This document shows positions 4,759 to 8,450 of a stretch of DNA of 37,649 nucleotides, one piece after another. Made by a program: the position numbers and the translations under genes. Every line of letters starts with the position of its first letter. The stretch's first letter is position 1. The stretch spans positions 1 to 37,649 of IMG/VR virus record IMGVR_UViG_3300013101_000033; one strand, 5' to 3'. The stretch is from a virus. The notes under the pieces were generated by a model. The model saw only the letters and a program-made list of their open reading frames with translations. It was not told the DNA's origin and made no database searches.

Positions 4759-4842
4759 TGTGGGGTAGCTCAGTTGGGAGAGCGCAGAGACTACCAATCA
4801 AACGCCTCTGAGGTCGCTGGTTCGATTCCAGCCCCCACAACC
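4759..4842 (+). tRNA. tRNA-like gene with a 16-base anticodon loop
   Basis: Canonical parts: a perfect seven-pair acceptor stem (4759-4765 with 4833-4839), TA linker, D stem GCTC/GAGC (4768-4771, 4780-4783) with loop AGTTGGGA, anticodon stem CAGAG/CTCTG (4785-4789, 4806-4810), variable AGGTC, and T arm GCTGG-TTCGATT-CCAGC (4816-4832). A discriminator A and CC follow; the final A of CCA is not encoded. The odd part is the anticodon loop (4790-4805), sixteen bases instead of seven. A normal-looking loop CTACCAA (4791-4797, anticodon ACC) can be read inside it, but then the flanking stem cannot form. No amino-acid identity is assigned. It may be a disabled tRNA, carry a nine-base insertion, or be a mimic like the elements downstream. 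Confidence 0.6.
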
Positions 4843-4866
4843 TCTTCTTAAATCATGGAGTGTCTT

Positions 4867-6339
4867 ATGTTTTATTTTTTAGCATTTATCTTTGTAATTC
4901 TCGTACTGTTCATTCGGTTTGTTCCTAAAGAACATACAAAACGTTATCGCACTGCAGACGGCATTGCAGAAAAGGTTATTCCTATTCCCTTTCCCTTTAA
5001 AGTAGCTTCCCGTATTGCTATAGGGGCTTTTGCTATCTTCTTATCTTTAGGTTTATTTAACAGCATATTCTTTTATGCTGAACCTGGTTATTACTATCAC
5101 GTCAGAACAATTACTGGTCAAGAAAAACGAGTTGATGACGTTGGTTACAACATCTATTTATTTGGTCGTTATAACAAATGGAAAAAGTCCATGTCCATTG
5201 TGGCTAAGGCTCAATATGAAGGTGTTAATGAAGACAGTACTGAAGCTGAAAATGAAAATGACAATATGACATCTTCAATTCTTGGTCCAGTACGTACCAT
5301 CTTTCTGGATCAGGTTGATTCACAAATCTCTGCTACAGCAAGATTTATGTTACCAGCAGATGAGCCATCATTTCTGGACATAGCGCGTCAGTATCGTTCA
5401 CCTGATAATTTGATTCGTACAACGCTGCTACCCGCCTTCCGCGAAACGCTGCAGGCGAACGCAGCGCTAATGGGAGCTGAAGATTACTTTGCTGGTAAAC
5501 GTACTGAATTCAATATCGATTTTGAAGAACAGTTGAAAAATGGACTTTACCTGGTACAACGTAAAGAAATACTTCAGAAAGCCCCAACTACCTCTGGTTC
5601 TGCTGATGCCTCTAAAGGTACAGCTCAAGAAGACTTTGGTACTACTGATAAAGTAATCTTTGTTGTTGAAAAGATTGTAGATCGTGCTGGTATACCTATT
5701 CGTAAAGCACAATCATATGCAGCTCTTGGTATTACTGTAGTTGAATCACGTATTACTGATGTTGTCCCTAACAGGGAATTCAGTGATCGTATGAAACTGA
5801 AACAGAAGGCTTCTGCTGACCGTGCTATTGCCCGGGAACAGCGTATCCAGGAAGAGGAACAACAGTTACTGGCAGTTGCCAAAGGTGACCGTATTGTTGC
5901 TGAAGAACAGGCTACCTGGAAGAAGGATCAGATTGCTCAGACTACCAAGCAAGAGACTGCTAAAGCTGTAGCACTTATTACTGCAAGCAGACAGCTGGAA
6001 CAAGCTCGTATTGAGAAAGCAACTGCAGCTGAAGTTCTATTGCGTGATGAGATTTCAGCCAAATCAATTGAAGTACTGGCTGATGCTGCAGCTTATAAGA
6101 AACGTGTAGTGATTCAAGCAGATAATGCACTGACTCAGAAACTGGCTACAGAAGAACGTATCCAGAAATATTGGGCTGATGCGTTTGCAGTACGTAAAGT
6201 GCCAACTACTGTCTTCACTTCCGGTGGAGCAGGTGGCGCAACACCTACTGGTTCTAATGTTGAGTTACAAAATATGGTCAGTCTTATGACCATGAATATG
6301 GCCGAGAAGCTTGACTACGCTCGTCATATAAAGAAATAA
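4867..6339 (+). CDS. SPFH/band-7 (prohibitin/HflK-like) membrane protein
   Basis: The start at 4867 is preferred over ATG 4855 because GGAG lies six bases before it; the product is 490 residues. Residues 1-20 and about 45-70 are hydrophobic membrane segments. A band-7-like region follows (about 75-310, with FFYAEPGYYYHVRTITGQEK and VIFVVEKIVDRAGIPIRKAQ), then a long Ala/Glu/Gln/Lys coiled coil (about 315-430), which is the usual layout of SPFH proteins that form membrane rings or microdomains and bind FtsH-type proteases. The spacer between residues 115 and 250 is longer than in compact HflK/HflC. It sits between tRNA-like elements and upstream of an AAA+ ATPase gene. I infer a role in remodelling the host membrane or shielding a host protease; neither is shown. 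Confidence 0.85.
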   Translation: MFYFLAFIFVILVLFIRFVPKEHTKRYRTADGIAEKVIPIPFPFKVASRIAIGAFAIFLSLGLFNSIFFYAEPGYYYHVRTITGQEKRVDDVGYNIYLFGRYNKWKKSMSIVAKAQYEGVNEDSTEAENENDNMTSSILGPVRTIFLDQVDSQISATARFMLPADEPSFLDIARQYRSPDNLIRTTLLPAFRETLQANAALMGAEDYFAGKRTEFNIDFEEQLKNGLYLVQRKEILQKAPTTSGSADASKGTAQEDFGTTDKVIFVVEKIVDRAGIPIRKAQSYAALGITVVESRITDVVPNREFSDRMKLKQKASADRAIAREQRIQEEEQQLLAVAKGDRIVAEEQATWKKDQIAQTTKQETAKAVALITASRQLEQARIEKATAAEVLLRDEISAKSIEVLADAAAYKKRVVIQADNALTQKLATEERIQKYWADAFAVRKVPTTVFTSGGAGGATPTGSNVELQNMVSLMTMNMAEKLDYARHIKK

Positions 6340-6353
6340 TAGAAGTCGATTAA

Positions 6354-6508
6354 TGCAGAGTAGCTCAGTGTGTAGAGCGTAGCTTAACTGGTCAAGAAGT
6401 CGTTGCGGGGCAGTGGCCCTTCATCGGCTTCGTCCGGGTTCGAGTCCCGGTAATCTCTTCTGAGATTACATAGCTAAGGCCGCAGGTTCGACTCCTGCCT
6501 CTGTAACC
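6354..6508 (+). ncRNA. composite tRNA-like element with a second tRNA-like fold inside the anticodon loop
   Basis: The outer tRNA body is clear: acceptor TGCAGAG/CTCTGTA (6354-6360 with 6499-6505, one G-U), TA, D arm GCTC-AGTGTGTA-GAGC (6363-6378), anticodon stem TAGCT/AGCTA (6380-6384 with 6472-6476), variable AGGCC, T arm GCAGG-TTCGACT-CCTGC (6482-6498), then A and CC. The anticodon loop is 87 bases. Inside are a seven-pair stem GAAGTCG/CGGCTTC (6396-6402 with 6425-6431), a second perfect T arm CCGGG-TTCGAGT-CCCGG (6434-6450), and a seven-pair stem TAATCTC/GAGATTA (6451-6457 with 6462-6468) capped by TTCT. The inner T arm followed by a hairpin acceptor, with its 3-prime strand first, is the order of a circularly permuted tRNA. 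TAGCT occurs at 6380 and 6471, so the break would lie in the D arm. No anticodon can be assigned. Confidence 0.65.
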
Positions 6509-6651
6509 TTTTTGAAATGTAGCAGTTAGGGCACTCCTGCAAGTACAAGTGAATGTGTCGAGCCGGTAAGGCGGTAGGTCCCTGTACACCAGAGGCATAA
6601 GATCCTAAAAACACTCAGACTATGTAGCGAACAGTTCATTTCAATTATTAA
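6509..6651 (+). other. unassigned stretch inside the tRNA-like cluster
   Basis: No convincing gene is seen here. The piece 6543-6590 could pair at its ends (GTACA with TGTAC) and finish A-CCA, and contains a small hairpin GCC-GGTAA-GGC (6562-6572) like a D arm, but no T arm is present. It may be a decayed or minimal tRNA-like element, or spacer. No open frame with a ribosome-binding site is visible. Confidence 0.3.
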
Positions 6652-6725
6652 CGGAAAGTAGCTCAGTGTAGAGCACCTCACTTGAGGCGAGGCGGTCAGT
6701 GGTATCAAATCCACTCTTTCCGACC
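6652..6725 (+). tRNA. aberrant tRNA-like gene (anticodon position reads UGA)
   Basis: Acceptor CGGAAAG/CTTTCCG (6652-6658 with 6716-6722) is perfect. TA, D arm GCTC-AGTGTA-GAGC with a short six-base loop, variable CGGTC, T stem AGTGG/CCACT (6698-6702 with 6711-6715), discriminator A and CC follow. Two parts are abnormal: the T loop has eight bases (TATCAAAT), and the anticodon stem (6676-6680 with 6688-6692) has an A-C mismatch beside loop CTTGAGG. By position the anticodon would be UGA (serine codon UCA), but there is no long variable arm as in serine tRNAs. A competing hairpin CCTC-ACTT-GAGG (6676-6687) would remove the anticodon loop altogether. I treat it as tRNA-like with no assigned amino acid. 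Confidence 0.55.
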
Positions 6726-6730
6726 TATAT

Positions 6731-6856
6731 GTCAAAGTAGCTCATTGCGAGAGCGTGGTTACGGTCGCGGGTTCAACTCCCGCCCAGCCTTCGGGCTGGT
6801 AGTTCAGTTGGTAGAACATAACTGAGGTCGGTGGTTGGATTCCACCCTTTGACACC
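6731..6856 (+). ncRNA. two-headed tRNA-like RNA: outer tRNA with a permuted tRNA fused through one anticodon helix
   Basis: Outer body: acceptor GTCAAAG/CTTTGAC (6731-6737 with 6847-6853), TA, D arm GCTC-ATTGCGA-GAGC (6740-6754), base 26, variable AGGTC (6825-6829), T arm GGTGG-TTGGATT-CCACC (6830-6846), then A-CC. Inner body, in permuted order: variable CGGTC (6762-6766), T arm GCGGG-TTCAACT-CCCGC (6767-6783), acceptor 3-prime strand CCAGCC (6784-6789), tetraloop TTCG, acceptor 5-prime strand GGCTGG (6794-6799), TA, D arm GTTC-AGTTGGTA-GAAC (6802-6817), base 26. The two bodies share one six-pair helix (6756-6761 with 6819-6824, two G-U pairs) where both anticodon stems should be. About 37 pairs form with tRNA-exact spacing on both sides, and neither body has an anticodon loop. 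It cannot decode, and only the outer acceptor is open. A pair of decayed tandem tRNAs is the alternative, but would not explain the cross-pairing. Confidence 0.75.
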
Positions 6857-6860
6857 TAAT

Positions 6861-6960
6861 TCCCTGCCAATGGGATAGGACTATGTATCAACTACAGTTC
6901 CCTGGTTTTTACTTGGGTTGATACTGCACAACGAGGCCCGGCTCGTGTCCGAAATCCGGG
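6861..6960 (+). ncRNA. structured RNA with an H-type pseudoknot before the terminator
   Basis: Three folds lie in series: a small hairpin TCCC/GGGA (6861-6864 with 6872-6875), an eight-pair stem GTATCAAC/GTTGATAC (6885-6892 with 6917-6924), and a hairpin ACGAG/CTCGT (6931-6935 with 6942-6946) whose loop bases CCCGG (6937-6941) pair with CCGGG (6956-6960). The last two helices make a classic H-type pseudoknot with a nine-base third loop. It may stabilise the 3-prime end of the tRNA-like transcript or regulate read-through into the AAA+ gene. No known riboswitch class is recognised. Confidence 0.45.
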
Positions 6961-6968
6961 ATAACTCT

Positions 6969-6996
6969 TACCCACATTTTGTGGGTATTTTTTTTT
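6969..6996 (+). terminator. strong intrinsic terminator closing the tRNA-like cluster
   Basis: A perfect seven-pair stem TACCCAC/GTGGGTA (6969-6975 with 6981-6987), loop ATTTT, is followed by nine T residues. It ends the RNA cluster 27 bases before the AAA+ ATPase start, so that gene needs its own promoter or read-through. Confidence 0.88.
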
Positions 6997-7022: not shown

Positions 7023-8450
7023 ATGAGCAAGAATTTACAAGATACAAAACGTACGCATGTTGCTGAAATTGTCCACCATGGTGAAAAGTTAGTCTTACCT
7101 GAAGGGCTGTCTCTGGAAGCTGCTATAAACCTGCTGCACAGACGTGCAGAATATGAAGAAACTATGGTTGATCTGGTGGAAAAGTTCGATGTATTTCCAT
7201 TCGATGGTGCCTATGGCCTCAGCCAGGTTATTCAGAATCGCTACGGTTGGCAGGAAGGCAAACCAATCATTTCAATGTTTGGTTCCCAGAAGCCACAGGT
7301 CCTGCAGATCCCATCAGGGGTTAACACAAAAGTGGATGTCCCTTGGGGACAATTTCAACTGCCTAATGTTGAAGGTATATTGATGACCGGTATGGCTAAG
7401 AACTCTGCTGGCCGGGCTATCTTCACTTTAAATGCTGGAGTAAAACGCAAAGATGAAGCCACTGTTCGTGGCCTGTTTAATGAGCTCCGTGATTATCTGA
7501 AAGATAATTCACTGTATCGCGGTAAAGCTATTAAGATTCGCTTCCGGGATGCTGACGGTGAATCTATCCCAATGCCTGAACCAGAATTCCTGGATCTGGA
7601 AAATGTAAGTCGTGACAACCTGATCTTGAATGATGATCTGGCCATCTCTGTCCGAGCCAATCTGTTTACACCGATTGAACGGGCACTGGATTGTATCCAG
7701 AACGGTATCAAGATTAAACGTGGCATCCTGTTGGGTGGTGACTATGGTACTGGTAAAACATTAGCAGCGATGGTTGCTGCCCGTATTGCTCAGGACAACG
7801 GTATCACGTACATCTACACACCCCGGGCTGATGAGCTAGGAGATGCTATTGCATTTGCCAAGCAGTATCAGAGCCCTGCCTGTGTAGTCTTCTGTGAAGA
7901 TATTGACAGATCAGTTACTGGTAAACGTACTGTTGCTATGGATGACATCCTGAATATTCTGGATGGTATTGATACCAAGAGTGAGAACATCATCACAGTG
8001 CTTACTACCAACCATCTTGAGAACGTTAACCGTGCCATGCTGCGTCCTGGACGGCTTGATGCCATCATTGATGTTGAACGTCCCAATGCCGAGTCTGCTA
8101 TGAAGTTGGTACGATTCTATGGTGGTGATTCTATCCCAGCTACTGAAGATCTGACTGATGTTGGTATAACTCTCCAGGGTCAAATACCTGCAGTAATTGA
8201 AGAAGCTGTTAAACGGGCTAAGTTGTTTGAACTTGCTTTAGTTGCACCAGGTGCAGCAATAGAGAATATCTCTGCTGAAGCCCTGAACCAATCAGCATCA
8301 ACAATGACCAAACAGATTGAACTGTTAGCAGCTCCGGAAGAAGATACAGTACCTACACTGGATACAGCAATGCAAGGCGCTGTCCGTACCGCTATGAACG
8401 GCGGAGTGAAAGAAGCTGTAGTTTCTGCATTAAACAAAGCTGCACATTAA
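7023..8450 (+). CDS. AAA+ ATPase (FtsH/Cdc48-type core)
   Basis: This 475-residue protein has an unassigned N-terminal half (1-210) and an AAA module at about 215-365: Walker A GGDYGTGKT (238-246), Walker B VVFCEDID (288-295), sensor-1 TTN (328-330), and arginine-finger region NRAMLRPGRLD (336-346). The last is typical of the classic AAA clade (FtsH, Cdc48/p97, spastin), which form hexamers that unfold or remodel proteins. No protease HExxH domain follows, so this is a remodelling ATPase only. The C-terminal 100 residues are helical and Ala-rich. It has a strong Shine-Dalgarno (GAGGAAGG). An SPFH protein lies upstream; in bacteria SPFH and AAA proteases of the FtsH type work together, so a functional pair is a reasonable inference. 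Confidence 0.9.
   Translation: MSKNLQDTKRTHVAEIVHHGEKLVLPEGLSLEAAINLLHRRAEYEETMVDLVEKFDVFPFDGAYGLSQVIQNRYGWQEGKPIISMFGSQKPQVLQIPSGVNTKVDVPWGQFQLPNVEGILMTGMAKNSAGRAIFTLNAGVKRKDEATVRGLFNELRDYLKDNSLYRGKAIKIRFRDADGESIPMPEPEFLDLENVSRDNLILNDDLAISVRANLFTPIERALDCIQNGIKIKRGILLGGDYGTGKTLAAMVAARIAQDNGITYIYTPRADELGDAIAFAKQYQSPACVVFCEDIDRSVTGKRTVAMDDILNILDGIDTKSENIITVLTTNHLENVNRAMLRPGRLDAIIDVERPNAESAMKLVRFYGGDSIPATEDLTDVGITLQGQIPAVIEEAVKRAKLFELALVAPGAAIENISAEALNQSASTMTKQIELLAAPEEDTVPTLDTAMQGAVRTAMNGGVKEAVVSALNKAAH

Follow-up and report, generated by a model that had tools for sequence, protein, structure and literature searches.

A predicted tRNA body of an N4-like phage with a YrlA-type Y RNA module in place of its anticodon loop

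An N4-like phage appears to encode an RNA in which the tRNA-like module of the bacterial Y RNA YrlA takes the place of the anticodon loop in a tRNA body. The RNA lies at positions 6731–6856 of the window, by which we mean the whole stretch of DNA analysed, 37,649 nucleotides in length. Its anatomy, its YrlA match, its tRNA-type outer ends and its recurrence in unrelated phages were read directly from sequence. We hold the predicted anatomy and identity of this composite with high confidence, and we consider it reasonably probable that the RNA as a whole is a non-decoding one that would engage elbow-binding host proteins. The parts of the composite, all on the plus strand, are as follows.

6731..6856, plus strand: whole composite RNA, a predicted tRNA body with a YrlA-type permuted tRNA module replacing the anticodon loop (sequence, descriptor and flank-shuffle control)
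6731..6755, plus strand: outer tRNA 5' half, with acceptor 5' strand 6731–6737, TA 6738–6739, D arm 6740–6754 and G26 at 6755
6756..6761, plus strand: 5' strand (TGGTTA) of the shared "anticodon" helix, which is also the basal helix of the YrlA module; 6/6 pairs with 6819–6824, and the YrlA covariance model pairs the same region
6759..6821, plus strand: YrlA tRNA-like module, with T arm 6767–6783, acceptor hairpin with UUCG 6784–6799, TA and D arm 6802–6817
6819..6824, plus strand: 3' strand (TAACTG) of the shared helix
6825..6856, plus strand: outer tRNA 3' half, with variable loop AGGTC 6825–6829, T arm 6830–6846, acceptor 3' strand 6847–6853 and discriminator A plus CC 6854–6856

The first-pass annotation of this DNA had proposed seven helices that can form at once (7+4+5 base pairs in the outer body, 6 shared and 4+5+6 in the inner body), and by sequence and descriptor every one of them is complementary at its place, with tRNA spacing throughout. 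The outer body is built from an acceptor stem with 7/7 pairs (GTCAAAG/CTTTGAC), a D stem (GCTC/GAGC) and a 5-bp T stem (GGTGG/CCACC), and the shared helix (TGGTTA/TAACTG) has 6/6 pairs, two of them G-U. The inner module runs in the order T arm (stem GCGGG/CCCGC), acceptor hairpin (CCAGCC-TTCG-GGCTGG, 6 bp with a UUCG cap), TA and D arm (stem GTTC/GAAC), as had been described. Also present as described were the TA linkers, the single position-26 bases (G and A) and the 5-nt variable loops of both bodies, and both bodies lack an anticodon loop. In the outer body, the T loop (TTGGATT) is non-canonical and departs from the consensus. ARAGORN reported the outer body as a tRNA once a 7-nt loop was substituted for the insert; in the window, the unmodified RNA was missed both by ARAGORN and by the Rfam tRNA model RF00005 at its gathering threshold. 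An aminoacylation trap had been suggested in the first-pass annotation as one possible role; of the identity elements that do not depend on the anticodon, the best known, a G3-U70 pair, is not present in the outer acceptor.

The permuted inner body had been put forward as an undescribed kind of RNA, and this part of the first-pass annotation did not hold: it corresponds to the tRNA-mimic module of YrlA. The Rfam YrlA model (RF02553) matched 6759–6821 with 43.3 bits (E = 3.1e-8) over model positions 23–85 of 114, a match that spans the tRNA-like module only and falls below the 69-bit gathering cut-off, as do phage YrlA RNAs near Ro genes (59.3, 50.0 and 39.5 bits). The nearest nucleotide relatives of the inner part were unannotated YrlA loci in phages, and it was 80% identical to the YrlA locus of Brevundimonas phage Gurke (query 33–89, E = 6e-5). 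YrlA modules recur in many phages, some of them adjoining Ro (TROVE) genes, and the phage loci that match the YrlA model over its full length include those of BONAISHI (59.3 bits), Olaya (50.0 bits) and GAP32 (44.7 bits).

In YrlA, the basal stem binds Rsr (the orthologue of Ro60) and the tRNA-like domain binds PNPase, and the RNA is modified by DusA and TruB (PMC8394870); its structure is PDB 6CU1, according to the same source. The permuted module of YrlA, with its T arm, closed acceptor hairpin and D arm above a closing basal helix, is present in 6731–6856, whereas the long Ro/Rsr-binding basal stem is absent and a tRNA body stands in its place. The closest relatives of the inner part, the phage-borne YrlA RNAs of Vibrio phage BONAISHI, Brevundimonas phage Gurke, Xanthomonas phage Olaya, Cronobacter phage GAP32 and mycobacteriophage Finnry, carry the same module in a phage but differ in the outer part, which at the phage YrlA loci examined was a long stem and no tRNA. 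Judged by these matches, the inner "circularly permuted tRNA" is already known, as the tRNA-like module of a bacterial Y RNA, and the new element is the frame, in which a predicted complete tRNA body (acceptor, D arm, T arm and A-CC end) replaces the Ro60/Rsr-binding stem. No description of YrlA inside a tRNA was found in the literature searched, which did not include the main Y RNA papers, so an earlier mention is possible.

An ordinary, Ro-bound YrlA, in which the phage encodes or uses a Ro protein that the outer part still binds, is highly unlikely. TROVE genes do occur in three phages with classic YrlA (BONAISHI, Gurke and Olaya), and the window is a fragment, but the outer part here is a tRNA body instead of the long YrlA stem. 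A TROVE gene was matched neither in the 37.6-kb window contig, which is an incomplete genome, nor in the two other contigs with the full architecture described below, in a search that also missed Finnry, which is annotated as Ro-like.

To look for the composite in other viruses, we scanned 2.9 million viral contigs with a pattern made up of the outer D arm, the inner T arm and the inner D arm only. Most of the 90 hits were set aside as artefacts, in which the D loop of an initiator tRNA (ggTAGCTCG) is followed by an ordinary tandem tRNA. In L023 and L082, two unrelated phage contigs, the architecture was complete: the outer acceptor, the outer T arm and the shared helix, all outside the pattern, were in place.

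L023 11349–11465: composite that follows the terminase and portal genes and has a terminator-like hairpin of its own
L082 about 7577–7702, minus strand: composite just before the terminase small-subunit gene, ending in ACCA

The tRNA model RF00005 spanned the composite of L023 with 29.2 bits, reading it as a tRNA that carries a large insert; the outer acceptor of this composite has only 5 bp, and it has no CCA-like 3' end. With the patterns used, these two loci and the one in the window were the only three canonical cases among the 2.9 million contigs. Because the design is carried by two unrelated contigs, we take it to be real but rare: the composite is rare yet independently recurrent. The earlier view of a tRNA mimic that cannot decode and has two bodies joined by a single helix thus gained support, since L023 and L082 are independent phages. 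A further pattern scan gave no new composite, an exact 36-base pattern gave no hit, and in blastn searches of named phages none of the composites of L211, L207, L082 and L023 had a full-length relative. Descriptor hits L295, L298, L316, L317 and L345 were left uncounted, as they have no canonical outer D arm.

Looser arrangements also appeared. At L200 and L207, the outer body, the helix, the inner T arm and the acceptor hairpin are as in the composite, the D arm is weak, and the RNA ends C-CCA. L160, L199 and L211 form a third, looser type, and the tRNA model spans L160 and L211 at 43–45 bits. At all five of these loci, a T arm and hairpin, without a canonical D arm, replace the anticodon loop of tRNA bodies. 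On the L082 contig, L082:8923–9382 contains a complete tmRNA (121.6 bits) as well as an abiF RNA motif, about 1.2–1.8 kb from the composite, which suggests a prophage inserted near ssrA.

The permuted order of the inner body resembles that of the permuted tRNA genes of algae and archaea, in which the parts of the tRNA are in circular order and a decoding tRNA is restored. A permuted or intron-bearing precursor that is processed into normal tRNAs would account for this resemblance, and its probability is close to nil. The anticodon loop is missing from both bodies at all three canonical loci, so no decoding tRNA can be made; we rejected this reading on that ground, and the first-pass annotation was right that cutting would restore no anticodon. 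Two other known designs come near the composite. tmRNA is a tRNA mimic in which something else replaces the anticodon region, whereas the composite lacks an mRNA-like part and has two full elbows instead of one. In the engineered tRNA scaffold for RNA expression, a foreign RNA is set in the anticodon arm of a tRNA; the composite differs in being natural and in that its guest is itself a tRNA mimic.

The outer body was compared with chance by keeping the inner module fixed and dinucleotide-shuffling both flanks. Any outer tRNA body arose in 3 of 4000 shuffles, and the observed score was reached in none of the 4000, which places the outer body of 6731–6856 beyond chance. By itself, the shared helix of 6731–6856 stands out only slightly from chance (969 of 20,000 shuffles, P about 0.05), but L023 (P 0.034) and L082 (P 0.011) have it as well, and both were retrieved by a pattern without the shared helix. 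Compensatory changes in this helix had been named earlier as potential support for the fold; across five loci of differing sequence the helix has 29/29 standard pairs, in hand counts that are biased because the loci were picked with a pairing descriptor. MAFFT gave no structural alignment of the composites (it shifted L082).

Thermodynamic folding bore out the proposed structure in part. For 6731–6856 as a whole, the proposed fold (–44.5 kcal/mol) lies 7.2 above the minimum free energy (MFE) structure (–51.7 kcal/mol); in the full-length ensemble, the D arms and the shared helix have probabilities of 0.00–0.05, and neither occurs in the MFE structure. The inner part folded alone does take the proposed structure (–24.8), and the MFE structure of L082 is exactly the seven-helix fold. 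On 70 ordinary phage tRNAs, the same program recovered only 40 of the D arms and 46 of the anticodon stems. Since the program often misses the arms of ordinary tRNAs, and since the inner part alone folds as proposed, we read the non-MFE status of the fold as weak counter-evidence and a reason for caution, and not as a refutation.

The contig was assigned to the N4-like phages by a 4233-aa ORF with a match to the family of virion RNA polymerases (phrog_2206, E = 4e-241). The composite belongs to an RNA cluster with an SPFH-domain gene on one side and an AAA ATPase gene on the other. The window holds these further features in or near the cluster.

4759..4842, plus strand: tRNA-like unit with a 16-nt anticodon loop and an A-CC end (RF00005 54.2 bits; missed by ARAGORN)
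6354..6508, plus strand: second composite, with a predicted outer tRNA body (TGCAGAG/CTCTGTA), D arm, helix TAGCT/AGCTA, T arm 6482–6498 and A-CC end
6652..6725, plus strand: tRNA-like unit called as tRNA-Ser(UGA), with no long variable arm, an 8-nt T loop, an irregular anticodon arm and an A-CC end
6969..6996, plus strand: intrinsic terminator closing the RNA cluster, an 8-bp stem plus T run

The insert of the second composite consists of a 7-bp hairpin, a T arm (6434–6450) and an acceptor-like hairpin (TAATCTC-TTCT-GAGATTA, 6451–6468), and the inner D arm is absent; its proposed fold (–54.8) again differs from the MFE (–62.9), and ARAGORN reported a tRNA after replacement of the insert. All four tRNA-like units in the window end A-CC-T, as against the ACCA encoded at L082, and from their sequences none of the four would be expected to decode normally. 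Two more structured stretches in the cluster, 6515–6650 and 6857–6960, have no recognisable tRNA-like fold, and one of them is closed by TTGAAATG/CATTTCAA. A promoter-like site at 6311–6340 was at chance level. The gene at 4855–6339 encodes an SPFH/Band 7 protein, and related proteins occur in a few large phages (Milchi, Slicko01 and phiN3). No related viral contig was found for it in IMG/VR, and no permuted module lies near the SPFH homologue in Pseudomonas phage Milchi or Alishewanella phage Slicko01. Relatives of the AAA ATPase (L002–L005) are without an adjoining RNA cluster and without YrlA, and a direct DNA search with the 721-bp cluster gave no match among phages.

These neighbours bear on the idea that the composite is a relic, the functionless remains of recombined tandem tRNA genes that still pair by descent. 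The neighbouring units look degenerate, with a 16-nt anticodon loop in one and an 8-nt T loop in another, and the off-consensus outer T loop and the MFE structure of 6731–6856, which is not a cloverleaf, would fit such decay. One would not expect a relic, however, to retain every acceptor pair, 7/7 in the outer body and 6/6 in the UUCG-capped inner one, or to recur in L023 and L082, and the A-CC ends are kept in all four outer bodies; we consider this reading quite unlikely. The tRNA-like units form a cluster that is flanked by two coding genes and followed by a terminator, which could also mean that the bodies merely mark cut sites that free neighbouring RNAs or mRNAs. Such processing punctuation would make an elaborate inner YrlA module unnecessary, and the L023 composite is isolated with a terminator-like hairpin of its own, so we regard it as a very unlikely account.

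Other anticodon-less and multi-module RNAs were seen alongside the composite. Anticodon-armless tRNA bodies are common in phage contigs (81 of the 122 loci examined), with 6–7 of 7 acceptor pairs, a D arm, a T arm and 8–15 nt in place of the anticodon arm; they are found among L112–L231 (e.g. L112:1566–1622, L114, L116 and L117) and at L018, the "tRNA-OTHER" of Polaribacter phage Danklef_1. Phage RNAs L030, L032, L033/L039/L084, L051, L079, L101 and L107 contain two tandem YrlA modules; like the composite, these RNAs have more than one tRNA-like module, but theirs stand in series, each with its own basal helix, whereas those of the composite are nested. Chromosomal RNAs of Bacteroidota and Clostridia (L263, L275, L295, L296, L298, L305, L311, L316, L343, L345 and others) carry at least two permuted tRNA-like modules in series, about 62 nt apart, with partly conserved flanks (5' TATGCTG in Bacteroidota, 3' GTGTGYGGATACCG in Clostridia). 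In Rfam, they gave only sub-threshold YrlA or weak tRNA matches, and TROVE was found in 1 of 10 genomes with such RNAs.

Returning to the composite as a non-decoding carrier of the YrlA module, we propose that the RNA would be made from the terminated non-coding cluster and that its outer ends would be trimmed as in a tRNA, by RNase P and 3' trimming, with CC completed to CCA. Maturation of this type would stabilise the RNA without Ro, in effect replacing Ro as the stabiliser. The mature RNA would display two tRNA elbows and one acceptor end and no anticodon, and so should bind readers of the elbow or acceptor and not the ribosomal decoding site; expected partners are pseudouridine and dihydrouridine enzymes, PNPase or other RNases and tRNA-sensing defence proteins. 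Such a two-headed tRNA mimic, unable to read codons, would serve as a decoy or a scaffold and so redirect host tRNA metabolism or decay. This mechanism is a tentative proposal, which we hold with more doubt than belief.

A narrower role, as a dedicated counter-defence bait for host tRNA-cutting or tRNA-sensing immune proteins that could not be cut for want of an anticodon loop, seems unlikely. The two elbows, the missing loop and the adjoining anticodon-defective tRNA bodies are consistent with it, and the tRNA-like domain of YrlA in Salmonella has been suggested to be a competitive inhibitor of an anticodon nuclease of which YrlA is not a substrate (PMC7790460). Anticodon nucleases, however, read the anticodon loop, which is missing here, and none of the window proteins tested gave a match to a defence gene.

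More broadly, nested bi-elbow RNAs may have arisen in phages on more than one occasion, with the YrlA module carried by a tRNA body instead of by Ro; the outcome would be a Ro-free, tRNA-processed Y RNA that manipulates host tRNA or RNA-decay proteins. This remains a conjecture, albeit one we take seriously. Bacterial Y RNAs have so far been seen as made of two parts, a stem that binds Ro and an effector that resembles tRNA, and the composite retains the effector and exchanges the Ro stem for a tRNA. With it, one could test directly how the tRNA-like module acts alone and whether tRNA maturation can replace Ro. The composite also points to a broader group of phage tRNA bodies without an anticodon, which are missed or labelled undetermined in tRNA annotation.
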